In this document: in pieces, positions 9,239 to 36,706 of the stretch
How positions within the stretch are numbered: the first letter of the stretch is position 1
Layout of the letters: every line of letters begins with the position of its first letter
Source: Deltaproteobacteria bacterium
GTDB lineage: Bacteria; Myxococcota_A; Polyangia; Polyangiales; JADJMO01
DNA length: 44,014 nucleotides
Direction of reading: 5' to 3'
NCBI GenBank assembly: GCA_022843175.1
Contig: JALHOE010000051.1
Span: 1-44,014 of the forward strand
Position numbers and translations under genes: made by a program
Notes under the pieces: generated by a model
Database searches by the model: none
What the model was told of the DNA's origin: nothing
The model's input: the letters and a program-made list of their open reading frames with translations, nothing else

Positions 9239-10234
9239 TCAGAACGACCCCGACCACGAGAGGAACGCGGTGCCGCGGGGATCGATGATCGCGCCGAGGC
9301 GCGGGCGCTCGGTGGGGGGCGCGCCGGCGAGGATGAGGATGGCGCCGCCGAGGATGGCCGCGCCGCCCGCGACGAAGGCGATGGTGGCGATGTTGGCTTC
9401 TTTGCGCGCGTCGGTCGAGAGCTGCACGGCCTGGTCGGAGCAGCTCGCGCGCGCGGGGCACTTCTCCTTGGCGTCCGACCAGGTGGAGCGCGCGGCGAGC
9501 CCGAAGTAGCCACCGACGCCGAGGCCCACGATGCCTGCCGCGCCGAGGATGTAGCCGGCGGTGCGTCGCGCGCGGCCGTGATCGACGAGCACCGGCGGGG
9601 GCAGCGGCGGTAGCTCGAGGGTCACGTCCTTGGTGGTGCCGGCGGGGAAGTACTCGTGCGCGACCTTGTTGCGGCCGTCGGGCGCGACGATCACGATCTC
9701 GTGTGCGCCGGCGTCGACCTCGACGACGAAATGGCCCGAGGGGACCTTCTCGCCCGGGCCCGGCGGGCGCGTGCCGGCGAGCATCAGCCCGGCGTCGGCG
9801 GCCTCGAGCGGGCGGCCGTCGACGGTGACCGTCACCGAGGGAGGCACGATGAAGGTGGGCGTCGCGATCTTGCTCCGGACCTCTTCGAGGTACTTCTTCG
9901 ACGCCGCCCGCAGCTCGGGCGTGAGCTCGGCGCCGTTGGCGGCCTGGTCCTGCGCGAGGGCGAGCGCGAAGTTCTTGCGCGCGCGGACCGCGCGACCGAG
10001 CGCGCGCTCGCAGTAGCCGATGTTGTACGTGGTGGTCGCGTGCGGGCGCAGCGCGGCGGACTCGGAGAACGCGGCCAGCGCGTCGCCCCAGCGCTCTTCG
10101 GAGGCGAAGGCGGCACCCTTCTCGAAGGCCGCGCGGGCGACCGCGACCTTATCGGCGCCGCCGCCGCCATCGGCCGTGGCGAGCGCCGGCGTGGCGGCGA
10201 GGGCGAGCGCGACGAGCAGGACTCCGGGACGCAT
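9239..10234 (-). CDS. TPR protein with PEGA-like domain and C-terminal membrane segments
   Basis: The protein has a signal peptide (residues about 1-21, ending ALATA), then TPR-like helices (residues about 30-130: KVAVARAAFEKGAAFASEERW, ATTTYNIGYCERALG). A short beta-rich domain with PEGA-like character follows (VTVDGRPLEAADAG...GHFVVEVDAGAHEIVIVAPDG). Two hydrophobic segments near 228-250 and 285-308 (TAGYILGAAGIVGLGVGGYFGL and IATIAFVAGGAAILGGAILIL) suggest an inner-membrane location with an exported N-terminal part. The layout is common in Polyangia but has no known activity. It is the last gene of the leftward run that begins with dnaX, 17 bases after the preceding lipoprotein gene. Confidence 0.8.
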   Translation of the reverse strand: MRPGVLLVALALAATPALATADGGGGADKVAVARAAFEKGAAFASEERWGDALAAFSESAALRPHATTTYNIGYCERALGRAVRARKNFALALAQDQAANGAELTPELRAASKKYLEEVRSKIATPTFIVPPSVTVTVDGRPLEAADAGLMLAGTRPPGPGEKVPSGHFVVEVDAGAHEIVIVAPDGRNKVAHEYFPAGTTKDVTLELPPLPPPVLVDHGRARRTAGYILGAAGIVGLGVGGYFGLAARSTWSDAKEKCPARASCSDQAVQLSTDARKEANIATIAFVAGGAAILGGAILILAGAPPTERPRLGAIIDPRGTAFLSWSGSF

Positions 10235-10251
10235 CGCGCGATGGTACGGCG

Positions 10252-11556
10252 CTACTTGGGAAGCGGATAGATGTTCGCGTCGGTGAGCTCGCCGGCGTGC
10301 ACCGTGATGGTCTGCCGAGCGATGACCTCCCCCCCGCGCGTCACGGTGAGCTCATGAGACCCCGGCTGGACGTTGACGTAGGCCGCGGCGCCCGTCGTGC
10401 TGGTCATCGTGCCGCCGGGGATCACGTTCACGCCGTCGAGATAGGCGAGCTTCGCGCCCGGCAGCTCGTTGAGCGAGGCGCCCGCGACGCGGCCCCACAG
10501 ACAGTCGTGCACGGTGAGGATCACGTGGCCGCGGCCGGGGATGAGGTCGACGCCGGCCTGCACCGCATAGAGCGAGAAGAGGTCTTCCTGCAGCGCGAGG
10601 GTCTCGAGGTGCGCCTCGTTCACGTGGATGCGCCGCCCGGTCATCACGTTGATCGGCATGTACACGCTCGGGGGAATGACCTGGACGCAGCCGTCGAAGC
10701 CGCCGTTGGTCATCGGCAGCGCGAGGGTGACGCGGCCCGTCGCGTCGGTCTCGCCTTTGACGCCCATGCAGCCCTTGTTGCACAGCGGCGGGGTGCACGC
10801 CGTGACCTTGGCGTTGGCCACGCCCTTGCCCTCGAAGTCCTCTACCCCGAGCGTGAACGCGACCTCGGGCGCGCGAGAGCGGCCATAGACGAAGCTGCGC
10901 GTGCAGGTCAGCTCGCCGTCGCCGAGCGGGCACTGCTTCTTGGTGGCGACGTCGGTGCAGCTCGCCTTGCGCATGCAGTCGAAGAGCGCGTTGAACTCGG
11001 CGGCGGCGCCGTGCTGGCCCTCGCAGTCGATGAACCCGTCGGGGTTCGGCTGCTGCGCGAGACACGCCAGCCTGCGCTCGCACGCACCCGGCGCCTTCTT
11101 GTCCGCCACGCCAGAGGTGACGCAGGCGAGCATCTCGCGCGCGCAGTGCGCGTCCATGCACTTGCACGAAGCGTTGAGCGCGGCGCCGAACCCCTCGCCG
11201 CCGTAGCAGTCGGCGGCGCACGACTTCCGCCGACAGAGATCGAACTGACTGTAGGCGGGGCTCCTGGCGGCGACGTCGTTGCTCTGCTCGCACTGCGCGC
11301 GGCACACCAAATCGCCGGGCGCGCACTTGCTGCGCAGGCACTTGTAGAGCGAGTTGCACGCGGGGTCGCGGGTGCAAGCGGCGCGCTCGTCGGTGCACGC
11401 CTGCGACTCGCAGGCCACGCACGAGGGGCTGATCGGCGGCCCGACGTCCTCGCCCGCGTCGGCGGCCTCGAGGGCGCGAGGAAGGTCCTTCACGCCGAGG
11501 ACCACGTCGCAGCCGGCCAGGGGCCAGGCGACGGTGAGCAGCCACAGCGCGCGCAT
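10252..11556 (-). CDS. Cys-rich lipoprotein B, paralogue of the 13048-14337 gene
   Basis: The start ATG (11556-11554) overlaps the kinase stop as TGATG, so it is probably translationally coupled to it. A short signal ends in a lipobox (WPLAGC). The mature N-terminus CDVVLGVKDLPR matches the same place in the 13048-14337 protein (CDAALGIEVLPR). About 24 cysteines, many as CxxC/CxxxC pairs, fill residues about 45-240, followed by a beta-rich half resembling Ig-like or carboxypeptidase-regulatory-like modules (GKGVANAKVTACTPPLCNKG, TDATGRVTLALP, GSHELTVTRGGEVI). The long frame continues upstream of 11556 into the kinase gene but has no better start. A surface or periplasmic role with disulfide stabilisation is inferred; the function is unknown. 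Confidence 0.85.
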   Translation of the reverse strand: MRALWLLTVAWPLAGCDVVLGVKDLPRALEAADAGEDVGPPISPSCVACESQACTDERAACTRDPACNSLYKCLRSKCAPGDLVCRAQCEQSNDVAARSPAYSQFDLCRRKSCAADCYGGEGFGAALNASCKCMDAHCAREMLACVTSGVADKKAPGACERRLACLAQQPNPDGFIDCEGQHGAAAEFNALFDCMRKASCTDVATKKQCPLGDGELTCTRSFVYGRSRAPEVAFTLGVEDFEGKGVANAKVTACTPPLCNKGCMGVKGETDATGRVTLALPMTNGGFDGCVQVIPPSVYMPINVMTGRRIHVNEAHLETLALQEDLFSLYAVQAGVDLIPGRGHVILTVHDCLWGRVAGASLNELPGAKLAYLDGVNVIPGGTMTSTTGAAAYVNVQPGSHELTVTRGGEVIARQTITVHAGELTDANIYPLPK

Positions 11557-12992
11557 CAGAACGGAGGCTTGGTCACGAGGCCCGAGCCGGTTGTCGCGGT
11601 GGTGCTCGGGGGAGGCGGGGGGAGCGCGGTCACGGATGCAACGATCGGCGTTGTCGCGCTCGGAATCAACTTTGGCGGTTTGGTCCCCGGCTTCACCGTC
11701 GCGGGCGCGCTCGGGGGCGCCGAGGCCACCACCGTGGGCGGGGGCGCCGGCGGCAGCGACGAGGGCGACGGGGAGGCGGCGGGCAGGACGACGATCGGGG
11801 AGGCGACCGCGTGGGGGACCGCCGGGATCGGCGGGGGCGCGGTCGGCGCTGCGCCGGGGAGGAAGCGGATGGCCGCGACGCCGACGCCGAGCAGCACGAC
11901 GACGGCAGCGCCGACGCCGACCCACGAGCGCGGGGCCGAGCGCATCGAGGTGACGTGCGCGGTGGCGGTCTCGTGGCGCGGCGTGGATTTCGCGAGGAGC
12001 GTCTCGGCCGTGGGATCGGTCGAGCGCGGACCGGCCATGGTGCGCGCGTTCGGATCGGTCCCGGTGCCGACGATCACGCGCCCCTCGCCCGACTCCTCGA
12101 CCGGGCGCAGGCGCGGCGCGCCGAAGCTCGGGCGCGCGACCGAGCCATGGCGGGCGAGGACCGTCGCGGCCTCTCGCAGGTCGCGGAGGCGGTCTTCGCG
12201 CTCGCGCGCGAGCATGCGAGTGATCAACGCCACGACGTCCTCGGGCAGGTCCTGGCGCTCGTCGGTGATCAGCGGCACCTGCTTGGTGAGCATCCGCTTG
12301 GCGAGCTGCCCGAAGTTGTCGCCCTCGATCGGACGCTTGCCGGCGAGCATCTCGAAGAGGATCACGCCGAGCGACCAGATGTCGACGCGGTAGTCGAGGT
12401 CCTTCTCGCCGAAGAGCTGCTCGGGAGCCATGTACGCGGGCGTCCCGATCACGCTGCCGCTCTGGGTGACGGCGGTGGACGCGAACTCGTCGATGTCGTG
12501 GCGAACGAGCTTGGCGACGCCGAAGTCGAGCACGCGCACGACCTCGCCCTGCGTGCCGCGCGAGAGGAAGACGTTCTCGGGCTTGAGGTCGCGGTGGATG
12601 AGACCGGCCTCGTGCGCCGCGCCGACCGCGGCGATCACCGGGAGGATCAGCCGCGCGGCGTCGCCGAGGGGGAGCTTGCCCTCGCGCATGAGCAGCGACG
12701 CGAGCGTCTCGCCGTGGAGGAGATCCATGACGATGACGGGCGTCTCCTCGTGGTCGAAGAGGTCCCGAATGGTGACGACGTTGGGGTGCTCGACCAGCGT
12801 CGTCGCGCGCGCCTCGCGGAGGAAGCGCTTGCGGTTCTCATCGCTCTCGGCGGCGCCCTTGATGAACTTGAGCGCGACGCGCCCTCCGGTGATCGTGTGG
12901 GTCGCCGCCCAGACCGCGCCCATTCCCCCCTCACCGAGGAGGTGATCGAGGCGGTAGCGCCCACCAATGACCGTTCCGACCGAGAGCTGCAC
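11556..12992 (-). CDS. Transmembrane Hanks-type Ser/Thr protein kinase
   Basis: The kinase domain covers residues about 12-275. It has the Gly-rich loop LGEGGMGAV, the ATP-binding Lys42 in VALKF, the catalytic loop HRDLKPEN (Asp135), the DFG motif (Asp156) and an APE-type MAPEQ (189-192). All catalytic residues are present, so it should be active. A linker rich in Thr follows, then one transmembrane helix (VGVGAAVVVLLGVGVAAIRFL, near residue 370) and a Pro/Ala/Ser-rich exported tail of about 90 residues without a recognised sensor fold. The kinase would be cytosolic. It lies between two paralogous Cys-rich lipoprotein genes, overlapping the downstream one. Those lipoproteins may act as its extracellular partners, which is inference from gene order. 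Confidence 0.93.
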   Translation of the reverse strand: MQLSVGTVIGGRYRLDHLLGEGGMGAVWAATHTITGGRVALKFIKGAAESDENRKRFLREARATTLVEHPNVVTIRDLFDHEETPVIVMDLLHGETLASLLMREGKLPLGDAARLILPVIAAVGAAHEAGLIHRDLKPENVFLSRGTQGEVVRVLDFGVAKLVRHDIDEFASTAVTQSGSVIGTPAYMAPEQLFGEKDLDYRVDIWSLGVILFEMLAGKRPIEGDNFGQLAKRMLTKQVPLITDERQDLPEDVVALITRMLAREREDRLRDLREAATVLARHGSVARPSFGAPRLRPVEESGEGRVIVGTGTDPNARTMAGPRSTDPTAETLLAKSTPRHETATAHVTSMRSAPRSWVGVGAAVVVLLGVGVAAIRFLPGAAPTAPPPIPAVPHAVASPIVVLPAASPSPSSLPPAPPPTVVASAPPSAPATVKPGTKPPKLIPSATTPIVASVTALPPPPPSTTATTGSGLVTKPPF

Positions 12993-13047
12993 GGCAGACG
13001 GCGCAGCGTATCACGCGAGCGAGGGGCGGCTCGGCTCCGCCGGCTAG

Positions 13048-14337
13048 TTAATCGGTGGTGCGTGGCACGCTGAAGAGCACGGTGATCGTGCCCGGCACGA
13101 TCACCGCGTAGTTGCGGCTGATCAGGCGGTCGCCATGGTAGGCGGACACCAGCGAAGGTGGGGTCGCGCGCGGGGGTAGGTTCACGAAGAGGGTCGTCCC
13201 CAGCGAGCCCGTCTCTTTGACCATTGTGTCGAGCGTGTTGTTGATGAAGCGGCCGGAGCGCACCGCCGCGTCGGTCGGCTCGACCGCGACGCGCATGCCC
13301 GCGATTGGGGTGTTCACGCAGTCGGCGGCGATCGAGATGAGGTGACCGCGGTCGGCCATGGTGTCGGTGCCGAGCAGCTTGCCGAGCACCGGAAGGTTCA
13401 CCGCCTCGACCACGAACATGCCGAAGGTGATGTCGCGCACCAGCGGAAAGCCGGGGTGGACGATCATCGGGACGAGCCCCGGTTTGTTGAGGGTGAGGCA
13501 GCCGCCGAACCCGGTCACCCCCGTCGGGAGCTCGAGCGTGATGTTGCCCTTCTCGTCGGTGACGTCGCTGACGATTGGCGCGGTGCAGTTGGCGCAGCTC
13601 CCTGCGTTGCATGCGCGGACCGTGACGCCCGGCACCGGATTGCGCGCGTTGTCGAAGCTCGTGACGTTCATGTCGAACCGGATCCTCGGCTTCGACGGCA
13701 GCTGCCAGCGGTAGCGACCGACGCACTCGAGTGCGCCGCCCTTGGCGAACGGGCAGGACGGGCAGGTCGTCGTCGACCAGCAGCGGCGCAGATCGTTGAC
13801 CTCGCTGTTGATCTGGGTGCCGAGCAGGCACTCCTGGGCGTGGTCCGGGTCGAGCCCGCTCTGCGCGATGCAGGAGAGTCCGCGCTCGCAGGCGCCGGTC
13901 TTCTCGGGGGTCCCGGCGCGAAGACACGCGAGGGTCTCGGTGCCGCACGGGGCGTCGAGGCACGCGCACCCGGGCCCGAAGATCGCGCCGAGGCCCGCGA
14001 CGCCGAGGCACGGCTCGGTGCACCGGCCGCGGAGGCAGAAATCGAGGGCGCGAAAGGCCTTGCCGGCGGCGGCGATGGGCGCCGCGCGTTCGCACAGCAT
14101 GCGGCAGTGCGCGTCGTTCGGTGGGCAGCGCGCGACGCACCGCTGAAGCGGATCGCAGGCGTCGTCGTCCGCGCAGAGCGCCCGCTCTGCCATGCAGGAC
14201 TGCGCAGCGCAGGTCGCGCATGCGGGGGCCGCGTAGGGGATCGGCCCCGGGCCCGTGGAGCGCGGGAGCACCTCGATCCCGAGCGCCGCGTCGCAGGCGA
14301 CGAGCGAGGCGATCAACGCGACGAGCCCCCCTCGCAT
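13048..14337 (-). CDS. Cys-rich lipoprotein A, paralogue of the 10252-11556 gene
   Basis: The ATG at 14337 lies 5 bases after the recR stop. A short signal ends in a lipobox (ASLVAC). The mature start is CDAALGIEVLPR, and an array of CxxC/CxxxC pairs follows (CATCAAQSC, CVARCPPNDAHCRMLC, CACLDAPCGTETLAC). The second half is beta-rich with repeating modules (GVTVRACNAGSCANC, TDEKGNITLELPTGVTGFGGC). Cysteine spacing and the TD.KG.ITL.LP...GGC block line up with the second lipoprotein, so the two are clearly paralogues that have diverged strongly. It is probably anchored in the outer membrane or periplasm. It is transcribed with recR upstream and the kinase downstream (55-base gap). The function is unknown. 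Confidence 0.85.
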   Translation of the reverse strand: MRGGLVALIASLVACDAALGIEVLPRSTGPGPIPYAAPACATCAAQSCMAERALCADDDACDPLQRCVARCPPNDAHCRMLCERAAPIAAAGKAFRALDFCLRGRCTEPCLGVAGLGAIFGPGCACLDAPCGTETLACLRAGTPEKTGACERGLSCIAQSGLDPDHAQECLLGTQINSEVNDLRRCWSTTTCPSCPFAKGGALECVGRYRWQLPSKPRIRFDMNVTSFDNARNPVPGVTVRACNAGSCANCTAPIVSDVTDEKGNITLELPTGVTGFGGCLTLNKPGLVPMIVHPGFPLVRDITFGMFVVEAVNLPVLGKLLGTDTMADRGHLISIAADCVNTPIAGMRVAVEPTDAAVRSGRFINNTLDTMVKETGSLGTTLFVNLPPRATPPSLVSAYHGDRLISRNYAVIVPGTITVLFSVPRTTD

Positions 14338-14342
14338 CGCGA

Positions 14343-14954
14343 CTACCGCCGCCCGGCGATCGCGCGACCGAGGGTGACCTGGTCGGCGAACTCGAGGTCG
14401 CTGCCGTGGGGCACGCCGCTCGCGATCCGCGAGACCGCCGCGCCGGTCGTCGCGAGCTCGCGCGACAGGAGCAGCGCTGTCGCCTCGCCGTCGACCGACG
14501 GGGGCGTGGCGACGATCACCTCGCGGATGCCCTCGTCGACGATGCGCTGCTTGAGGAGGTCGAGGGGTAGATCGTCCGGACCGACGCCCTCGAGCGGCGA
14601 GACCAGCTTGCCGAGCACGAAGTAGCGGCCACGCATCGCGCCGCTCCGCTCGATGGCCGAGAGATCCTGCACGCGCGCGACGACGCAGAGCAGGGTGGGG
14701 TCGCGGCGCGAGTCGGCGCACACTTCGCACAGCAACGGCGACGCCGGGGCGCCGGGCTCGACCTCGGCGAGGTTGCCGCAGCGTTCGCAGGGGCGGACGC
14801 GCTCGTGCAGCTCCTCGAGCGCCTTGGCGAGCGCGAGCGACAGCGCGGGCTCCGCCGCCAAGAGGTGGAGCACGTAGCGCGCAGCCGTCCGCTCGCCGAC
14901 GCCGGGGAGTCGCTCGAGGAGACGCGCGACGATCCGCGCGTGACGCGGCAACAT
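14343..14954 (-). CDS. recR: Recombination mediator RecR
   Basis: RecR works with RecO and RecF to load RecA on gapped DNA. At 203 residues it has the normal family length. An N-terminal helix-hairpin-helix region (LLERLPGVGERTAARY) is followed by a zinc finger with Cys56, Cys59, Cys76 and Cys79, and then a TOPRIM domain (LLCVVARVQDLSAIERSG, GRYFVLGKLVSPLEGVGPDD). The ATG at 14954 overlaps the ybaB stop as TGATG; the frame remains open upstream inside ybaB but that extension has no homology. The order dnaX-ybaB-recR is the classic recombination/replication operon. Confidence 0.96.
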   Translation of the reverse strand: MLPRHARIVARLLERLPGVGERTAARYVLHLLAAEPALSLALAKALEELHERVRPCERCGNLAEVEPGAPASPLLCEVCADSRRDPTLLCVVARVQDLSAIERSGAMRGRYFVLGKLVSPLEGVGPDDLPLDLLKQRIVDEGIREVIVATPPSVDGEATALLLSRELATTGAAVSRIASGVPHGSDLEFADQVTLGRAIAGRR

Positions 14955-15268
14955 CAGCCGGTGAGGCCGGGGATCTTGAGACCGCCGGTGGCCTTGGCGA
15001 CCTCGGCCTCGACCTCTTTCTCGCAGATCTCGTGGGCCGCGTTGATCGCCGCGGCGATCGAGTCGAGCACGACCTCGCGGTCCTCGCCCTTGTAGAACTC
15101 CTCGTCGACCTCGATGCGCGCGACCTTGCGCTCGCCGGTGACGGTGGCGGCGACGCGGTCGCCGGCGACCTTGGCCGTCCACTCCTTGGCTTTCATCTCT
15201 TCGTGGATGGCGGCGATCTTGCGCTGTACGCGCGCAGCCTGGCGCATCAGCTCGTTCATGTTCGACAT
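14954..15268 (-). CDS. ybaB: YbaB/EbfC family nucleoid-associated protein
   Basis: This 104-residue protein has the usual YbaB length and pattern: an N-terminal helix (MNELMRQAARVQRKIAAIHEEM), a beta hairpin (VAGDRVAATVTGERKVARIEVDEEF) and a long C-terminal helix ending with a Gly-rich tail (GGLKIPGLTG). The family forms dimers that bind DNA and sits between dnaX and recR in many bacteria. It lies 11 bases downstream of dnaX and overlaps recR. Confidence 0.95.
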   Translation of the reverse strand: MSNMNELMRQAARVQRKIAAIHEEMKAKEWTAKVAGDRVAATVTGERKVARIEVDEEFYKGEDREVVLDSIAAAINAAHEICEKEVEAEVAKATGGLKIPGLTG

Positions 15269-15279
15269 GGCAACCTCAC

Positions 15280-17100
15280 TCAGTCGTCGTTGGGGAGCTT
15301 CACGTTCCGCACTTCGGCTTTGAAAATCGAGATCGCGTCTTGTACGGCGGGGTGCGCGATCGCCTCACGGCGCGCCGCGTCCATCGCCTGCGACCTCTGC
15401 TCGCTCGAGAGCTGCGCCAGGGTGCGACCGGAGAGCCCGCCCTCGCAGAGGACAAACCGCGCCGCGGCGCCGAGCTCGTTCTTGGTGGCGCGGGTGAACG
15501 CGTCGCCGATCTGGGGGTCTCCGAGCTGCGCCGCGAGAAAGGACCGCTTCTCATAGGCGATCTCGAGCGCCTCGCCGTCGCAGCGGACGATGACGCCGTG
15601 CTCGAGGAGCGAGCCCCAGGTGGCCCGCTCCTGCCGAAGGCGAGCCGCCACCGCGCGCACGCGCTCGACGACCGAGGGCGTGAGGATGCCGTCCGGCTGC
15701 ACGACCGGGCCGACGACCGTGGCCACGATCGACGACGCGTCGGGGGCGATGGCGCGTGCCGCACTGGCCGCGCCCCGCGGGGCCATCTGCTGCGGGGGCA
15801 TCTGCTGCGGGGCCATCTGCTGCGGGGGCATCTGCTGCGGCGCCGAGGCCACCGGGGGCGGGGCTGCGCTCGCCGGCGGCGGGCGCTGGGGGGTGGTGGG
15901 CGTCGTCGGCGGGCGCTGGCCGCCGGTCGGCGGACGGGGTGCGCCACCGCCCCCACCGAGCTTGCGTTCGAGCTCCGAAAGCCGCTCGAGGAGCGAATCG
16001 ACGGGGATGAGCGGCGGACGTCGCGCGAGCCGCACCGCGGCCATCTCGAGCGCGTGCCGAGGGTTCTGCGCCTTGGCGAGCTCGTCCATCGCGCGCGACA
16101 TGCCCTGGAAGATGCGCGCGAGGTCGTCCGGCTCGGCGGCGGCAGCGAGCGCCTTGACGTCGGCGAGCTCGGCGTCCGCGAGATCGAGCAGCGGCTCGGG
16201 GTCGGGGACGACCCGGGCGACCACGAGATCGCGACAGCGACGGAGCAGATCGCGCGCGACGTGCACGAGGTCGAAGCCGCCGGCCGCGAGGCGCTCGATC
16301 TGCCGCAGCGCATCGGCGGCGCGGCCCTCGACGATGGAGCTCGCGAGCCCGTGCAGCGCGGCGCGGTCGGCCACGCCGAGCACCTTGGCGACCTCGTCGC
16401 CGACGAGCTTGTCGCCGCCGAAGGCGATGACCTGATCGAGGATCGACAGCGCGTCGCGCATGGAGCCCGCGGCCTCGCGCGAGACGAGCTGGATCGCGGC
16501 CTCGTCGGCGTGGATCTTCTCGACCGACAGGATGTGGCGCACCCGCTCGGCGATGCGGGCTGCGGCGATCATCTTGAAATCGAACCGCTGACAGCGCGAA
16601 AGGATCGTGATCGGGACCTTGTGAACCTCGGTCGTCGCGAAGATGAACTTCACGTGCGGCGGCGGCTCCTCGAGCGTCTTGAGGAACGCGTTCCACGCGT
16701 TGCCCGAGAGCATGTGCACCTCGTCGACGATGAGGATCTTGAAGCGATCGCGCGCGGGCCGGTACGGCAGCGACTCCTGGATCCGGCGGACGTCGTCGAC
16801 GCCGGTGTGGGACGCGGCGTCGATCTCCTGCACGTCGACGTCGACGCCGGCGGCGATTTCCTTGCAGGGCGAGCACTCGAGGCAGGGCGTCGCCGTGGGG
16901 CCGTTCACGCAGTTGAGCGCCTTCGCCAGGATGCGCGCGCTCGTGGTCTTGCCGACGCCGCGGACGCCCGTGAACAGGAACGCGTGCGCGACGCGGCCCT
17001 GCTGGATGGCGTTGCCGAGCGTGCGCGAGACGTGCTCCTGACCGACGAGGTCCTCGAAGGTCTGCGGACGCCACTTACGTGCAAGGACGAGGTAACTCAC
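15280..17100 (-). CDS. dnaX: DNA polymerase III subunit tau/gamma DnaX
   Basis: This is the clamp-loader ATPase and scaffold of the replicase. Domain I has Walker A GVRGVGKT (residues 45-52), the zinc-binding Cys64, Cys73, Cys76 and Cys79, Walker B ILIVDEVH (residues 122-129) and the sensor/SRC motif (ILSRCQRFDF). Domain III (about 230-360) is followed by a Pro/Gln/Met-rich linker (encoded near 15779-15842) and a C-terminal polymerase-binding domain. At 606 residues it is tau-like. I see no A-rich slippery heptamer of the kind used in Escherichia coli to make the shorter gamma form. It begins a leftward run of seven genes that ends at 9239. Confidence 0.97.
   Translation of the reverse strand: MSYLVLARKWRPQTFEDLVGQEHVSRTLGNAIQQGRVAHAFLFTGVRGVGKTTSARILAKALNCVNGPTATPCLECSPCKEIAAGVDVDVQEIDAASHTGVDDVRRIQESLPYRPARDRFKILIVDEVHMLSGNAWNAFLKTLEEPPPHVKFIFATTEVHKVPITILSRCQRFDFKMIAAARIAERVRHILSVEKIHADEAAIQLVSREAAGSMRDALSILDQVIAFGGDKLVGDEVAKVLGVADRAALHGLASSIVEGRAADALRQIERLAAGGFDLVHVARDLLRRCRDLVVARVVPDPEPLLDLADAELADVKALAAAAEPDDLARIFQGMSRAMDELAKAQNPRHALEMAAVRLARRPPLIPVDSLLERLSELERKLGGGGGAPRPPTGGQRPPTTPTTPQRPPPASAAPPPVASAPQQMPPQQMAPQQMPPQQMAPRGAASAARAIAPDASSIVATVVGPVVQPDGILTPSVVERVRAVAARLRQERATWGSLLEHGVIVRCDGEALEIAYEKRSFLAAQLGDPQIGDAFTRATKNELGAAARFVLCEGGLSGRTLAQLSSEQRSQAMDAARREAIAHPAVQDAISIFKAEVRNVKLPNDD
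15779..15842 (-). repeat. Four-copy 15-bp tandem repeat inside dnaX
   Basis: A 15-base unit containing ATCTGCTGC (plus strand) occurs about four times, alternating GGGGCC and GGGGGC flanks. It encodes Pro-Gln-Gln-Met-Ala/Pro repeats in the interdomain linker. The period is a multiple of three, so the frame is kept. Confidence 0.85.
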
Positions 17101-17204
17101 GAGCGGTCTGCGGTGGTACCGCGAGCGTCGCTGGGCGTCACCTCGCGTCGCACGAGCGCCTGATCTCGGCCGTCCGGGCGCTGCCGGTGGGGGAATTCGC
17201 CCGC
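17101..17204. other. Gap between dnaX and the zinc-ribbon gene
   Basis: Both flanking genes point left, so these 104 bases are upstream of dnaX. I found no strong -35/-10 pair or stable hairpin. Any dnaX promoter must lie here or within the zinc-ribbon gene. Confidence 0.4.
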
Positions 17205-17498
17205 TCAGCGATCGTCTTGCGCGTAGTCGCTCACGTCCGTCGTGGTGTCGAACACCTGACCGCAGCGACGGCAGAGGTAATCGATGCGGTGGGGCTTCTG
17301 CGAGATGCCCATCGACACCACGAACAGCTGCCAGAAACCGTATTTCGGGTCGGCCGTGACCATGTAGTGGGAACGGGTGTGGCCGCAGCGGCAGCGGGGC
17401 GAATCGTCGGACACGAGGCCGGGACTCTGGTGCTTCCGCCGCGCGTTGTCTAGCCGCCGTGCAATATCGCTCGGCAGCTCATGCGGCCGGACTTTCAC
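17205..17498 (-). CDS. Small zinc-ribbon hypothetical protein, 97 aa
   Basis: Two Cys pairs, CRCGH at about residues 36-40 and CRRCG at about residues 76-80, look like the knuckles of a zinc ribbon; the first is tighter than the usual CxxC. The segment between them is hydrophobic and aromatic (YGFWQLFVVSMGI), typical of a small beta-sheet core. The start is a GTG; no ATG is suitably placed. It is divergent from the next gene with only about 29 bases between starts, so they may share a control region. The function is unknown. Confidence 0.65.
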   Translation of the reverse strand: MKVRPHELPSDIARRLDNARRKHQSPGLVSDDSPRCRCGHTRSHYMVTADPKYGFWQLFVVSMGISQKPHRIDYLCRRCGQVFDTTTDVSDYAQDDR

Positions 17499-17527
17499 GC
17501 CGCCAGCCGTGGCATATTGCCGGTGCC

Positions 17528-20329
17528 GTGCGCGACTCCGAAGACGTTCCTCATCTGCTCTCGCTCTCGGAGCTCGCCTCCGCGTCGGAGCTGCGCGCGT
17601 CCGGCGATCGGCCGTCGCGCGTGCGGAGGTCGCGTCCGCGGATCGACCCGTCCGCGACGGCGCTCGGCGGCAAGGGCTCGCGCCTGGTGTGGCTCGTCCG
17701 CAACGGGTTCGCGGTCCCCGACGCGCGCATCCTCCCCTCCGAGATCTTCGACGCGATCGCGCGCGACGTGCTGCCGCCGGGACACGACGTGCGCACGCTG
17801 CTCCGCCTCGCCGGCACCCGCGAGGGCATGGAGCGCGCGGGCAAGGCGCACGGCCGCCTCCGCGAGGCGCGGCTGCCGTCGTGGCTCGAGGCCGAGATCG
17901 CGCGGATCTGGTCCGAGCTCGCGCCGCACGCGCCGTGGGGCCTCGCGGTCCGCTCCAGCGCCACCTGCGAGGACTCCGCCGCGGGCTCGCTCGCCGGTCT
18001 CGCCACCACCCGGCTCGGCGTCCGCGGCGCGGGCGAGATCGCCGACGCGCTCCGTGAGGTGTGGGCGTCGCTGCTGCTGCCGCGCGCCCTCGCCTACCTC
18101 GAGCGTCGCGGGATTCACCACGCCTCGATGGCGGTGATCCTTCAGGTGATCGTGCCGGCGGTCGCGAGCGGCGTCGCCATCGCCACCGAGGCGCCGCTCG
18201 GCCAGTCGTCCACGCGCAGCGTGGAGATCCTCGTCAACGCCACCTACGGCCTCGGTGCGCCGGTCGTCAGCGGCGTCGCCTCGCCCGACGTGCTCCGCAT
18301 CCACGCGCCGATCCCGCGCGACGACGCGCCCCCGGCCGAGGAGACGCGCGTCGTCGAGCAGACGATCGCGCACAAGGCGCGCTCGCTCGTGGTCGGCCCC
18401 TCGGGCCCGACCGCCAACGACATCCCCGAGGCGCGCCGCGATCGTCCGGCGCTCTCGCCCAAGAGCGTCCACGACCTGTCGGCCGCGTGCGCGCGCCTCG
18501 CAACGCTCGGTCCCGGGCCGTGGGAGGTCGAGCTGGCGATCGACGGCGCAGAGACGCTGTGGATGCTGCAGGCTCGCCCGGTCGTCGACACCGGCCTCCC
18601 CGAGGGCGGCGACGAGACGACGGTGTGGTCGTGCGCGAACCTGGCCGAAGCTCTGCCCGGCGTGGCCACGCCGCTCACGTGGTCGGTCGCCGCGAACTTC
18701 TCCGAGCTCGGCTTCCGGCGCGCGTTCGCGGCGCTCGGCGCCGTGGTCCCGCGCGGCACCAAGCTCGTGGCCAGCGTGCAGGGGCGCTTCTACCTCAACC
18801 TCACGGCGTTCATGCGCGTCGCCGCGAGCGTGCCCGGCCTCGATCCAGCCACGCTCCTCGAGCTCGGGGGCGGCGCCGCCGTCGACCTCTTGCAGAGCCA
18901 GGTCGAGGGCGTCTCCAAGAAGGGCTTCTACGCGCGGCTGCCGTTCACCGCGACGCGCGCCCTGCGCGAACAGGCCCGCCTCGACAGCGAGCTGACGATC
19001 TACGAGCGCGAGGCCACCCGATCTCGCGCGGCGTTCGAGGCGCTCGACCTCGGGATCCTCACCGACGACGGAGTCGCCACCACGCTCCGCGATCTGCAGC
19101 GGTTCCTCGATCGCACCGGCGCGTTGATGCTCAGCTGCGCGTCCAACGCGCTCGGCTCGTTCGTCGCGCTCCGCGCGCTGCTCGCGCGGTGGGTCGATCC
19201 GGCGAGCGCGACGCAGCTCGCCGGCGATCTCACGGCCGGCGGCGCGGGCAAGGGGCTCGGCGATCTCGAGAGCGCGCGGCCGACGATCGCCCTCGCGCGC
19301 ATCGCCGAGATCGCCCTCGCCGACGCCGTCGCGCGCGACGTCATCCTCGCCGGCGTCACGCGGATCGTCGACGTCCCGCGCGGCCCCACGCGCGACGCGC
19401 TCGAGCGTTGGATCGCCGCCTACGGCGACCGCGCCATCCGCGAGGCCGAGCTCGCGACGCCGCGCTGGCGCGAGGACGCGTCGTTCCCGCTCGCGACCCT
19501 CGCGCTCTACATCCGGCGCGGGCTCGAGGGCCGCTCGTTCTCGCCGCAGACGGTCGAGGTCGGCGCGCGCGCCGACGACGCGACGCGCACGGTCGAGGGC
19601 AAGCTCGGCATCGTGCAGCGCACCGCGCTCCGCCACCTCATCGCGCGCTGCCACAAGTTCGCGCGCCTCCGCGAGCGCATGCGGGCGTGGGTCACCTGGG
19701 TGCTCGGCGCGATCCGCGTCGCGGCGCTCGAGGCCGAGCGGCGCCTGTCGCGTCGCGAGCCGGCGCTCTCGCCGCACGGGGAGATCCCGGCGGTGTTCTT
19801 CTGCACCGTCGACGAGATCCTGGCGGTGCTGCGCGGCGAGAACCGCGCGATCGCGCGCGTCGTCGAGCTGCGACGCGCGGAGTACGCGCGCGATCTCGCG
19901 CGCCCCGATCCCGAGACCACGTTCGTCGGTCGCCCGTCCCCGGTCCGACTCGAGGCCCTCGGCGGGACGGTGCTGCAGGGTCATGGCGCGGCGCCCGGCG
20001 TCGTCGTCGGACCGGTGCGCGTCCTCGGCTCGCCGGCCGAGGCCGCGAAGCTCCGGCCCGGCGAAATCCTCGTCACCCGCACGACCGACGTCGGCTGGAC
20101 GCCGCTGTTCCTCGCCGCGGCCGGGGTCGTCACCGAGCTCGGCGGACCGCTGTCGCACGCCGCGATCGTCGCGCGCGAGCTCGGCGTGCCCTGCGTCGTC
20201 AACGCCGGCGGCGCCACAAAAAGGCTCCGCGACGGCGCGATCGTTCGACTCGACGGGCACCGCGGTGTCGTCGAGGTCGTGCCGGATGCGAGCCCCGTGG
20301 TCGAGTCGCCCGCCGCGGAAGCGCGATGA
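17528..20329 (+). CDS. PEP-synthase/rifampin-phosphotransferase-like enzyme (ATP-binding plus swivelling His domains)
   Basis: The N-terminal ATP-binding domain shows GGKGSRLVWL (GGKG at 47-50), AVRSSATCEDSA, and the closing WEVELAIDG...LWMLQARPVV. A middle region of about 450 residues has no obvious match. The C-terminal swivelling domain has GGPLSHAAIVARELGVP with phospho-accepting His877. The protein stops 56 residues later, so the C-terminal PEP-binding barrel of PEP synthase is absent. The domain order therefore matches rifampin phosphotransferases and related antibiotic-modifying enzymes (ATP domain, substrate domain, His domain), which transfer the beta phosphate of ATP to a substrate. 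The substrate here cannot be told. The GTG at 17528 avoids overlap with the divergent gene; an in-frame ATG at 17459 is an alternative. It ends in an ATGA overlap with the pseudouridine synthase gene. Confidence 0.85.
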   Translation: MRDSEDVPHLLSLSELASASELRASGDRPSRVRRSRPRIDPSATALGGKGSRLVWLVRNGFAVPDARILPSEIFDAIARDVLPPGHDVRTLLRLAGTREGMERAGKAHGRLREARLPSWLEAEIARIWSELAPHAPWGLAVRSSATCEDSAAGSLAGLATTRLGVRGAGEIADALREVWASLLLPRALAYLERRGIHHASMAVILQVIVPAVASGVAIATEAPLGQSSTRSVEILVNATYGLGAPVVSGVASPDVLRIHAPIPRDDAPPAEETRVVEQTIAHKARSLVVGPSGPTANDIPEARRDRPALSPKSVHDLSAACARLATLGPGPWEVELAIDGAETLWMLQARPVVDTGLPEGGDETTVWSCANLAEALPGVATPLTWSVAANFSELGFRRAFAALGAVVPRGTKLVASVQGRFYLNLTAFMRVAASVPGLDPATLLELGGGAAVDLLQSQVEGVSKKGFYARLPFTATRALREQARLDSELTIYEREATRSRAAFEALDLGILTDDGVATTLRDLQRFLDRTGALMLSCASNALGSFVALRALLARWVDPASATQLAGDLTAGGAGKGLGDLESARPTIALARIAEIALADAVARDVILAGVTRIVDVPRGPTRDALERWIAAYGDRAIREAELATPRWREDASFPLATLALYIRRGLEGRSFSPQTVEVGARADDATRTVEGKLGIVQRTALRHLIARCHKFARLRERMRAWVTWVLGAIRVAALEAERRLSRREPALSPHGEIPAVFFCTVDEILAVLRGENRAIARVVELRRAEYARDLARPDPETTFVGRPSPVRLEALGGTVLQGHGAAPGVVVGPVRVLGSPAEAAKLRPGEILVTRTTDVGWTPLFLAAAGVVTELGGPLSHAAIVARELGVPCVVNAGGATKRLRDGAIVRLDGHRGVVEVVPDASPVVESPAAEAR

Positions 20330-21216
20330 GCAAGCGCTTCGTGGCGCCGGCCGACACCACGGTCGGGGCGATCCTGTCTCAGCTCGGCGAGGCCCTCGAC
20401 GCGATCACCGAGGGTCGCGTGTTCTGCGGACGTCGCCGCGTGCTCGGCGAGGGCGAGCGAGTCCATGCCGGCGAGGAGCTCCTCGTGCACCCGCCGCGCG
20501 ACGCGATCGCGCTGCCCGAGCCGTTCGTGCTCCACCACGGGGACGGCGTGCTGATCGTCGACAAGCCCGCGGGCATTCCGACGATCCCGGACACGATCGG
20601 CGCGCGCGGGACGCTCGTCGACCTCGCGGCGCGCGCGCTCTCCCTCTCGCGCGACGCGCTCCATCCCACGAGCCGTCTCGATCGCGAGGTGTCGGGCGTG
20701 GTGACGTTCGCCCTCGACGAGCGCGCCCGCGAAGCGCTCGCCACCGCGCGGGACGAGGGCCGGTACGAGCGGCGCTACGTGGCCATCGCCGCGGGGGTGC
20801 CGGGGGCCGGGCCGTGGACCTGGCCGATCGGTCGCGCGCGCGACCCCAAGCTCCGCCGTGCCGCGGCCGATGGAAAGCCCGCCGAGACGCGGGTTCGGGT
20901 CGTGGCCCAGCAGGGGCGGTTCGCCCTCCTCGTGCTCGCGCCGGTCACCGGGCGCACGCATCAGCTGCGCGTCCACGCATCGACGGCAGGGGCGCCCCTG
21001 GTCGGGGACCGCGCCTACGGCGGCCCCCCGCGCCTCACGCTTCCGAGCGGAAAGTCGCTCACCCTCGGTCGGGTCGCGCTGCACTGCGCCCGGGTGCGCA
21101 TCGAGACAAAGAATTGCATCATCCAGGCGTCGTCGCCCGTCTCACCCGAGCTCATTGGGTTGGCCGGCGATCTCGGCCTCGGTGGGTTCGAAGAGGCGCT
21201 CGCATGCGAAGTCTAA
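20326..21216 (+). CDS. RluA-family RNA pseudouridine synthase
   Basis: Members isomerise specific uridines in rRNA or tRNA. The N-terminal 60 residues look like a degenerate S4-like RNA-binding domain. The core starts with VLIVDKPAGIPTIP. The catalytic motif is SRLDREVSG with Asp119, where most members have HRLDRxTSG. The RNA-contacting motif GRTHQLRVHASTAGAPLVGDRAYG is intact. At 296 residues it has normal length. The ATG at 20326 overlaps the preceding stop, suggesting coupled translation. The exact target uridine cannot be assigned from sequence. Confidence 0.92.
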   Translation: MSKRFVAPADTTVGAILSQLGEALDAITEGRVFCGRRRVLGEGERVHAGEELLVHPPRDAIALPEPFVLHHGDGVLIVDKPAGIPTIPDTIGARGTLVDLAARALSLSRDALHPTSRLDREVSGVVTFALDERAREALATARDEGRYERRYVAIAAGVPGAGPWTWPIGRARDPKLRRAAADGKPAETRVRVVAQQGRFALLVLAPVTGRTHQLRVHASTAGAPLVGDRAYGGPPRLTLPSGKSLTLGRVALHCARVRIETKNCIIQASSPVSPELIGLAGDLGLGGFEEALACEV

Positions 21217-33680: not shown

Positions 33681-34550
33681 GTGACCGAGCCGGCGCGCGA
33701 TTGGACCGTACGCGACGTGGTCGCGTGGATGACCGACGACCTGCGCAAGCGCGGGGTCGAGGGCGCGCGGCTCGACGCCGAGCTGATCGTCGCCCAGGCC
33801 CTGGGGATCGATCGCATCAAGGTGATCATCAGCGGCGAGCGCTCGCTGTCCCCGGTGGAGCTCGAGACGATCCGCGCCCTGTTTCGCCGGCGGCGGACCG
33901 CCGAGCCCGTCGCCTACCTCCGTGGCGAGCGTGAGTTCTACGGGCGCCCGTTCCGGGTCGACCGTCGCGTCCTGGTTCCGCGCCCCGACACCGAGATCCT
34001 CGTCGAAGTCGCGCTCCGGCGCCTGCGCGGTCGCGATCTCTCGGCCCGGGTCCTCGACCTGTGTACCGGGTCGGGATGCGTCGCCATCACCCTCAAGCTG
34101 GAGCGGCCGACCCTGAGCGTCGACGCCACCGACCTCTCGCCCGACGCGATCGCCGTCGCGCGCGACAACGCGCACCGACTCGGCGCGATCTGGAACGTGC
34201 GCTTCGCGGTCGGCGATCTCCTCGCCCCGGGCGGCCCCTACGACCTCATCACCGCCAACCCGCCGTACATCGCCACCTCCGAGATCGCCACGCTGCAGGC
34301 CGACATCCGCGACCACGAGCCTCGCCTCGCGCTCGACGGCGGCGCCGACGGTCTCGACCTCGTGCGCCGGATCGTCGCCGCGGCGCCCGGCTGGCTCGCG
34401 CCGGGCGGCGCGCTCGCGATGGAGCTGGGCGCCGGCCAGGCCGAAGAGGTCGTGCGCTTGTTCGAGGCCCACGGCTTCACCGACGTGCAGAAGACGCGGG
34501 ACTACGGCGGCCACGATCGCGTGGTGAGCGGATGCGTCGCTTCGCGGTGA
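33681..34550 (+). CDS. prmC: Release-factor glutamine methyltransferase PrmC
   Basis: PrmC methylates the GGQ glutamine of release factors. The N-terminal helical domain (residues about 1-80) is followed by YLRGEREFYGRPFRVDRRVLVPRPDTE. The SAM-binding motif is VLDLCTGSGCVAI and the substrate glutamine-binding motif is NPPYIA (near residue 193). At 289 residues it has normal length. The start is a GTG. Its 3' end overlaps the next gene by 19 bases. Confidence 0.95.
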   Translation: MTEPARDWTVRDVVAWMTDDLRKRGVEGARLDAELIVAQALGIDRIKVIISGERSLSPVELETIRALFRRRRTAEPVAYLRGEREFYGRPFRVDRRVLVPRPDTEILVEVALRRLRGRDLSARVLDLCTGSGCVAITLKLERPTLSVDATDLSPDAIAVARDNAHRLGAIWNVRFAVGDLLAPGGPYDLITANPPYIATSEIATLQADIRDHEPRLALDGGADGLDLVRRIVAAAPGWLAPGGALAMELGAGQAEEVVRLFEAHGFTDVQKTRDYGGHDRVVSGCVASR

Positions 34551-35095
34551 TCGGCCAGCGCGCGACGTCCTCGCCGACGTTCCTCATGCGCGACATCCCG
34601 GGGACGAGCGGGCGCCTCGACGTGCTCATCCGCTGCCTCCGCGCCGCGCTGCTCGTGTCGCATGGGCTCCGGCGCGACACCGTCATCTACCTGGTGCTGC
34701 TCGGCGACATGCCGACGACGCTGCGGTTCTCGGGCAACGCCGCGAAGTACATCCGGCCCGACGAGCACCAGCTCGCGATCCTCGTCCGCAAGCTGCTCGC
34801 GTGGCCGGCCGACTCGGCGCGGTTCGTCGAGATGCGCGAGGGGATCGCCATCGCCCGCGGCGGCCTCGAGGTCGTCCTCGCCGACGCGGGCGCGTGCGCC
34901 CGTTACGTCCTCGACGAGCGCGGCGCGGATATGCGGACGCTCCCCCTCGAGCCGGACGCGCTGTTCCTCCTCGGTGACGACCGCGGATTTCCCGAGGGAT
35001 TTGCGGTGGAGGGCACCCACGTCTCGGTCGGACCCACCAGCGTGCAGGCCGAGGACGCCCTCACCCTGATCCACAACGAGCTCGATCGCCGCTAG
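34532..35095 (+). CDS. TrmY-like SPOUT methyltransferase (COG1901/DUF358; archaeal tRNA pseudouridine-54 methylase family)
   Basis: The sequence matches the archaeal TrmY pattern closely: an N-terminal strand followed by DIPGTSGRLDVLIRCLRAALLVSHGLRRDTVIYLVLLG, then RPDEHQLAILVRKLL, and the C-terminal knot region with FLLGDDRGFPEGF and DALTLIHNELDRR. At 187 residues it is normal for the family. In archaea TrmY makes N1-methylpseudouridine at tRNA position 54. Most bacteria have ribothymidine there, so the substrate of this bacterial member is uncertain. The ATG at 34532 lies inside the end of prmC, suggesting coupled expression of two translation-related methyltransferases. Confidence 0.85.
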   Translation: MRRFAVIGQRATSSPTFLMRDIPGTSGRLDVLIRCLRAALLVSHGLRRDTVIYLVLLGDMPTTLRFSGNAAKYIRPDEHQLAILVRKLLAWPADSARFVEMREGIAIARGGLEVVLADAGACARYVLDERGADMRTLPLEPDALFLLGDDRGFPEGFAVEGTHVSVGPTSVQAEDALTLIHNELDRR

Positions 35096-35105
35096 CATCG
35101 CGCGC

Positions 35106-36302
35106 TTGTCCGTCGACCCCAACATCGGCCGGCTCTACCGCGCGACCTTCCTCTTCGGGATCGCGTGCGGCATCTCCATCGCGCTCAGCTCGCTGCACCT
35201 CGACGCGCTCGGCTTCACCAAGCCGCAGATCGGCACGCTCGCCGCGTGGTTCGCGTCGGGCGTCGTGCTCATGTCGCTGCCCGCCGGCTCGCTCATCCGA
35301 CGCTTCTCCGCGCGCAACACGCTGCTCGCCTTCATGGTCGGCTACGCGATCTGCGTCACCGGCTTCCCGTTCCTCAAGAGCTACGCCGGCATCGCGGCGA
35401 TCCGCGCGCTCGATGGCGCCTGCTCGGTGGGCATCTGGGTCAGCTCGGAGACCATCCTGCTCAGCCGCGCCGAGAGCGGGCGCAAGGCGCACCTCACGAG
35501 CCTCTACGCCGTGTGGCTGTCGTGCGGGTACATCGCGGGCCCGATCGTGGCGAAGCTCGTCACCGCGTTCGCCTCGATGCCGGCCGCCTTCGTGCTCTCG
35601 GGCGTCATCTCGCTCGTGGCGTTCTTCTACATCTTCACGCGCTTCGCCGACGACGGGCTCGGCCGCGAGCTGCCCCCCATCCCGGGCTCCACCGAGGCGC
35701 CCGCGCAGCCGCTGCAGATCCTCTCGCGCATCAAGAACAGCTGCTTCGCGATCTTCTGCTACGGGTACTTCCAGGCGTCGGTCGTCATCTTCCTGCCGCT
35801 CTACCTCATCGCGTCGAAGGGCATCCCGCGCGACCGCACCATCGTGCTGCCCGCGCTGTTCTGCCTCGGCATGCTCGCGGCCTCCAACGCCGCAGGGCGT
35901 CTCGGCGATCGCATCGGTCATCTGCTGGTGATGCGGCTCCTCGCGATCGTCGGCACCACGATGATCCTCGGGTTCGTGTTCCTCGACTCGTACCTCTTGA
36001 TGTGCCTCGCCGTGCTCACCGCGGGCGCCACGCTCGCCGCGATGTCGCCGGTGAGCCTCGCGCTGCAGGGCATCGTCACCGAGCGCAAGGACTACAGCCG
36101 CTCGAACGCGATCTACAACGTGTTCTACGCGGCCGGCATGCTGCTCGGCCCGCCGATCTCGAGCCTCTTGTTCGGCCACTACGGCGGCAAGGCGATGCTC
36201 TATCACCTCGCCGCGCTGTGGAGCGGGTTCATCGTGTTCTCGATGGTCTTCTACGCGGACGACCCGGCGGCCGCGCGTGCGGCTCAGGTCAGCCGGACGT
36301 GA
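35106..36302 (+). CDS. Major facilitator superfamily transporter, 398 aa
   Basis: About twelve hydrophobic segments are visible. The first half has the loop after TM2 (GSLIRRFSARNTLLAF), a degenerate form of the MFS motif, and the middle loop is about 40 residues (residues 185-220). The second half repeats the pattern (SNAAGRLGDRIGHLLVMRLLAIVG). It is an inner-membrane proton- or solute-coupled carrier; the substrate is unknown. The start is a TTG, the only suitable codon, 10 bases after the TrmY-like gene. Its 3' end overlaps the convergent VOC gene by 19 bases. Confidence 0.88.
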   Translation: MSVDPNIGRLYRATFLFGIACGISIALSSLHLDALGFTKPQIGTLAAWFASGVVLMSLPAGSLIRRFSARNTLLAFMVGYAICVTGFPFLKSYAGIAAIRALDGACSVGIWVSSETILLSRAESGRKAHLTSLYAVWLSCGYIAGPIVAKLVTAFASMPAAFVLSGVISLVAFFYIFTRFADDGLGRELPPIPGSTEAPAQPLQILSRIKNSCFAIFCYGYFQASVVIFLPLYLIASKGIPRDRTIVLPALFCLGMLAASNAAGRLGDRIGHLLVMRLLAIVGTTMILGFVFLDSYLLMCLAVLTAGATLAAMSPVSLALQGIVTERKDYSRSNAIYNVFYAAGMLLGPPISSLLFGHYGGKAMLYHLAALWSGFIVFSMVFYADDPAAARAAQVSRT

Positions 36303-36706
36303 CCCTCGTCGTCGAGCTTCCAGAACGGGTTGTGCGCCACCTCCCACACGAACCCGTCCGGATCGGCGAAGTAGCCCGAGTAGCCGCCCCAAAAAGTCTC
36401 GTGCGCGGGCTTCAGGATCTTGGCGCCGGCCCGCTCCACCTCGGCGAGCGTGCGGTCGACGCTCTCGCGATCGCGGCAGTTGTGGGCGAGCGCAATCCCC
36501 CCGAAGCCCTGGCCATCGGCGACCTTCGCGTCCTCGACCAGAGACGCGCGCTTCCATAGCGCGAGCACCAGACCGTCGCAGTCGATGAAGGTGACGTCGT
36601 CGTTGCTGCCTTGCGCGGGCGCAAAGCCGAGGCCGTCGAGGTAGAACCTCCGCGCGCGGGCCAGGTCGCTTACGCCGAGGGTGATGAGCGAGATTCGCGG
36701 CTTCAT
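36284..36706 (-). CDS. VOC (glyoxalase/bleomycin-resistance fold) protein, 140 aa
   Basis: The protein shows the paired beta-alpha-beta-beta-beta fold: ISLITLGVSDLARARRFYLDGLGF, FIDCDGLVLALWKR, and the second module ending GYSGYFADPDGFVWEVAHNP. The Glu in FVWEVA is a typical metal ligand. The position of the first metal-binding His (before xxLxVxD) is occupied by Thr in SLITLGV, so it may not be a standard metal enzyme. Relatives include dioxygenases, isomerases and drug-binding proteins. The substrate is unknown. Confidence 0.88.
   Translation of the reverse strand: MKPRISLITLGVSDLARARRFYLDGLGFAPAQGSNDDVTFIDCDGLVLALWKRASLVEDAKVADGQGFGGIALAHNCRDRESVDRTLAEVERAGAKILKPAHETFWGGYSGYFADPDGFVWEVAHNPFWKLDDEGHVRLT

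Follow-up and report, generated by a model that had tools for sequence, protein, structure and literature searches.

The window, by which we mean the whole stretch of 44,014 nucleotides that was analysed, carries on its forward strand a gene for a 187-aa protein (34532..35095), starting with ATG and recognised from its open reading frame, profile searches and structure-model matches as a trmY-like gene for a SPOUT methyltransferase of the PF04013/COG1901 family. Its 5′ end overlaps by 19 nt (34532..34550, +) the 3′ end of prmC, the release factor glutamine methyltransferase gene (33681..34550, +; TIGR03534, 280 bits vs a cut-off of 199), which is treated here as context and not as part of a conserved unit. 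An MFS gene (35106-36302, +) and a 140-aa ORF on the opposite strand (36284-36706, −) follow, and the segment formed by these three genes (34532..36706) is situated between prmC and a 199-aa ORF, a response regulator (RR) gene and a kinase (HK) gene. A gene for an RluA-family pseudouridine synthase is found on the same strand 13.3 kb upstream of trmY (20338..21216).

The window gene product is a member of PF04013/COG1901, of the archaeal type. The Pfam model PF04013 (Methyltrn_RNA_2) matches the protein from end to end (model positions 1-195/198, E 1.4e-39), with 136 bits at a cut-off of 25.5 bits, and this is the sole PF04013 match in the whole 9.75-Mb genome. The three blocks DIPGTSGRLDVLIRC, GDDRGFPE and TLIHNELD are all present, and the solved relatives rank by sequence as AF1056 (2.6e-27), MJ1640 (1.5e-22) and then VC_A1059 (9.8e-11). 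With the NCBIfam TrmY equivalog NF002560, the protein scored 155.4 bits, under the cut-off of 183. The DIPGTSGRLDVLIRC motif is encoded at 34592..34636 (+; residues 21-35), and its residues G27, R28, D30 and R34 are invariant across 10 archaeal and 27 order-clade sequences and replaced in the gamma/Vibrio group. R47, P168, N182 and D185 are likewise retained in 27 out of the 27 order sequences. The window protein deviates at two near-invariant positions, R79H and H150D.

In an AlphaFold model calculated with the window protein and 18 homologues as input (pLDDT 86), the predicted SPOUT fold is nearest to the solved PF04013/COG1901 members, with TM scores of 0.90 for MJ1640 (3aia), 0.88 for AF1056 (2qmm) and 0.85 for VCA1059; the next match after the COG1901 structures was Nep1, at 0.58-0.68. 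The atom methylated by TrmY, as by Nep1, is N1 of pseudouridine (PMC9508554), and the same chemistry is therefore a reasonable expectation for the window protein, which, by analogy with its family, is very likely an N1-pseudouridine methyltransferase.

Homologues of trmY were found in 29 of the 144 sampled genomes of the window's order, probably Polyangiales; some of these carriers are closed genomes, 10 to 13.6 Mb in size. A phylum sample of 377 genomes yielded 11 matches, every one of them in this order. The other bacterial members found outside the order came from Vibrio, Photobacterium and two other proteobacterial MAGs, and the nearest archaeal matches in the collection, from Methanomicrobiales, showed 40-44% identity. 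In a tree of 42 proteins, the 27 from the order form one group (support 99/96), and a 100/100 branch splits the gamma group from the order and archaeal sequences together. The archaeal sequences are too poorly resolved as a group (58/23) for a donor to be identified, and which way the gene was transferred can only be inferred. The assignment to the TrmY/COG1901 family made in the earlier note is borne out by the Pfam score, the motif blocks and the archaeal-side placement in this tree. A chance ORF was ruled out by the homologues in the order genomes, closed ones included, and by the dN/dS values given below, and a contaminated assembly by the closed genomes among the carriers and by the glgA-prmC synteny of the window contig, which is common to four relatives (G001 to G004). 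A phage origin was dismissed, as phages gave no match and viral contigs no relative in a search covering close relatives only; a plasmid origin was dismissed too, the plasmid matches being of the distant Vibrio type only.

The trmY tree is in conflict with taxonomy: monophyly was rejected for genus g24 (p 0.006) and family f12 (p 0.008), and was not rejected for trmY of the window genome (G000) and its same-genus sister G001 (p 0.175). Because of this conflict, trmY appears to move between lineages of the order; it would be explained by horizontal transfer among them or, alternatively, by an old duplication followed by loss. Seven close trmY pairs had dN/dS values of 0.10-0.30, and the gene is therefore functional in the lineages of those pairs; between G000 and G001, the divergence is too great for the ratio to be trusted.

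Archaeal TrmY requires a Psi54 made by Pus10 (PMC9508554, PMC7912444). No Pus10 was found in the window genome, and none of the 144 order genomes had a match over the cut-off; two partial sub-cut-off matches, of 17.9 and 19.2 bits, were in G015 and G029. TrmFO, for which the earlier note had proposed a check, scored 549 bits in the window genome and was found in 28 out of the 29 carriers, above its cut-off in most of them, and also in nearly all the non-carriers. With TrmFO expected to convert U54 to m5U and no Pus10 found, the archaeal role, methylating a Pus10-made Psi54, seems unlikely in this bacterium judging from its gene content, and the window protein should not be called TrmY if that name is to imply action on Psi54. 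The earlier note had suggested either a different target or an unusual tRNA. TrmFO and the missing Pus10 match favour the former; the latter was not borne out, as each of the 70 distinct tRNAs obtained from the window genome, tRNA array included, possesses an ordinary TTCRA T-loop. In this array (G000:C135 (L120) 10158-19992), 25 predicted tRNA genes are packed into 10 kb, and between them lie genes for an HNH endonuclease, an ARPP-1 protein and a Ro60-like TROVE/vWA protein; a second long ORF in it (13478-15166) looks similar by eye, although the Pfam scan of this stretch gave no match for it. TruB was found in 27 of the 28 carriers searched, and two carriers from a single genus encode a second TruB-family protein that scores below the cut-off (G033:C58:119358-120104 and G042:C49:393-1145).

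Some or even all tRNAs might still receive m1Psi54, if Psi54 were produced by a TruC-like enzyme or a TruB paralogue and TrmFO acted elsewhere or on other tRNAs. The retention of the archaeal motif would fit this, as would the presence of TruB, given that TrmY is favoured in vitro when position 55 is a pyrimidine or Psi (PMC5372735, PMC7912444), and the weaker second TruB-family match in the two genomes just named. TrmFO-family enzymes may moreover be specific for rRNA: the family protein RlmFO targets 23S rRNA (PMC4081110), and m5U54 in the carriers is therefore expected rather than proven. However, with Pus10 not found in the 144 order genomes, TrmFO present with or without trmY, and ordinary T-loops in all the tRNAs checked, we regard m1Psi54 as unlikely.

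In G141 and G118, two genomes of one genus and the only ones with this arrangement, the trmY stop overlaps as GTGA with the start of a gene for a TruC-like RluA-family pseudouridine synthase. The best NCBIfam match of this coupled synthase is TruC (NF008321; 186-189 bits, below the 328 cut-off), the tRNA Psi65 synthase. Its homologues at ≥65% identity, a threshold chosen after the list was seen, occurred in 11 of the 29 carriers vs 5 of the 115 non-carriers (Fisher p 8e-6, genomes treated as independent), in 11/17 carriers vs 5/52 non-carriers within family f12 (p 1.8e-5, shared ancestry ignored), and, within genus g24, in all five carriers and neither of the two non-carriers. The closest homologue in the window genome lies on another contig (C17) and is 54% identical, and a match at E 1e-35 was absent in five of the 29 carriers. 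For the synthase at 20338..21216, G015/G030 encode a homologue of about 44% identity at a distance of ~6 kb from trmY; the link of this synthase to trmY is weak, and we claim no partner status for it. A synthase thus lies within 20 kb of trmY in three lineages (13 kb in the window, 6 kb in G015/G030, overlapping in G118/G141), a proximity that by a rough estimate is not clearly above chance, the overlapping pair excepted. Neither TruD nor the PF00849 synthase count was informative, both being near-universal. In most carriers, no recognisable RNA-modification gene was present in the trmY neighbourhood. In G029 (C240, L064:6006-7511), trmY is located 22 nt downstream of ttcA on the same strand; this tRNA thiolation gene encodes the tRNA 2-thiocytidine 32 synthetase.

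The substrate could alternatively be a pseudouridine in ribosomal RNA, with a function like that of Nep1, whose fold is the nearest outside PF04013. Carriers contained 5-11 matches to PF00849, a family of which many enzymes modify rRNA in other bacteria. However, the one synthase directly next to trmY has a tRNA synthase, TruC, as its best-scoring match, the carrier with trmY behind ttcA points to tRNA as well, and the characterised members of the family have tRNA as their substrate (PMC9508554). An rRNA target is in our view improbable.

It is also conceivable that the protein now catalyses a different methylation through drift or, in the window genome, has retained little activity. Its score under the NCBIfam equivalog cut-off and the R79H and H150D replacements would be consistent with such drift, as would its identity to the same-genus G001 protein, which is 53-59% vs 78-79% for prmC. 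Nevertheless, the other carriers show purifying selection and the core motif is intact, and we hold this drift to be quite doubtful.

The overlap with prmC, 19 nt long (34532-34550), had been taken in the earlier note as a sign of a translation-linked role, which the comparison of loci does not support. In the sister genome G001, prmC is located between glgA and the p36760-RR-HK genes, and right after it come the 199-aa ORF and the genes for the response regulator and the kinase, without trmY; the glgA-prmC adjacency of the window is common to G001 to G004. The whole segment of trmY, the MFS gene and the 140-aa ORF is absent at this place in G001, whose own trmY lies on a different contig among different neighbours. 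Relative to G001 the segment is an insertion, or else G001 has a deletion, and the C-terminus of PrmC, encoded just before the segment, differs between the two genomes. Across the 26 other carriers searched for prmC, G001 included, trmY was beside prmC in none: the two genes were on separate contigs or, if the genome was closed, >800 kb apart. The overlap is specific to the window genome and is most simply a local accident, giving no support for a link with PrmC, and a prmC-trmY functional unit was rejected, the adjacency being seen in the window genome only. A joint role with PrmC in the biology of release factors or of translation termination, for which the overlap in the window speaks, is already largely refuted by this missing conservation in the sister genome and the other carriers, and is extremely improbable.

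We give about an even chance to the following explanation: the protein is an archaeal-type m1Psi methyltransferase that the order has acquired, and its target is a pseudouridine other than Psi54, perhaps one made by a TruC-like synthase. It would transfer the methyl group of S-adenosylmethionine to N1 of an RNA pseudouridine, a chemistry suggested by the family. The order probably acquired the gene in a single event, the donor being archaeal or archaeal-like, and both the tree and the loci suggest that it was afterwards shuffled between lineages and loci. From the gene content, the substrate is most likely not Psi54, and would more likely be a pseudouridine from a resident bacterial synthase. 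The leading candidate for this synthase is the TruC-like RluA-family enzyme, presumably acting on tRNA, to which one coupled gene pair and the co-occurrence point. A more specific form of this explanation, in which the TruC-like synthase takes the place of Pus10 and the archaeal-derived SPOUT enzyme methylates its product, giving m1Psi at a tRNA position for which it has not been described, is put forward tentatively, as a possibility on the less likely side.

Bacterial COG1901 members from Vibrio were already recorded in 2007 (PMC1829167), and one bacterial member has a solved structure (2qwv). A 2017 review described the TrmY family as archaea-only (PMC5372735), and a 2021 review tied m1Psi54 to Pus10 and reported the latter enzyme absent from bacteria (PMC7912444). 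What is new here is the archaeal-type clade in the order, the gene content speaking against Psi54, the mobility of the gene and a concrete candidate partner. An archaeal-type member under purifying selection in bacteria with TrmFO and without detectable Pus10 means either that bacterial RNA contains an unmapped m1Psi or that position 54 is handled in an unexpected way.

Compared with known systems, the window protein most resembles the archaeal TrmY proteins MJ1640 and AF1056, with which it shares the full-length PF04013 domain, a closely matching model (TM 0.88-0.90), the D-x-PG-x-x-GR-x-D-x-L-x-R-C motif, the PDE(R/H) and GD(H/D) blocks and the NELD end. In contrast to them, it falls below the NCBIfam TrmY equivalog cut-off, belongs to a separate clade, and occurs in a host with TrmFO and without detectable Pus10, so that a Psi54 substrate is not expected. 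The Vibrio/gammaproteobacterial COG1901 proteins (VC_A1059, 2qwv) are alike in PF04013, the bacterial host and the TLIHNE(L/I)D end, but show about 26-33% identity, lack G27/R28/D30/R34 and sit on a far branch (100/100). Nep1/Emg1, the m1Psi rRNA methyltransferase, shares the SPOUT fold and the N1-pseudouridine chemistry and is the next best structural match, yet at 10-16% identity and TM 0.58-0.68 it belongs to another family. RsmE (COG1385), although of the SPOUT superfamily and tied to COG1901 in an earlier study (PMC1829167), differs with a TM of 0.41, E 1e-3 and no family model in common with the window protein.
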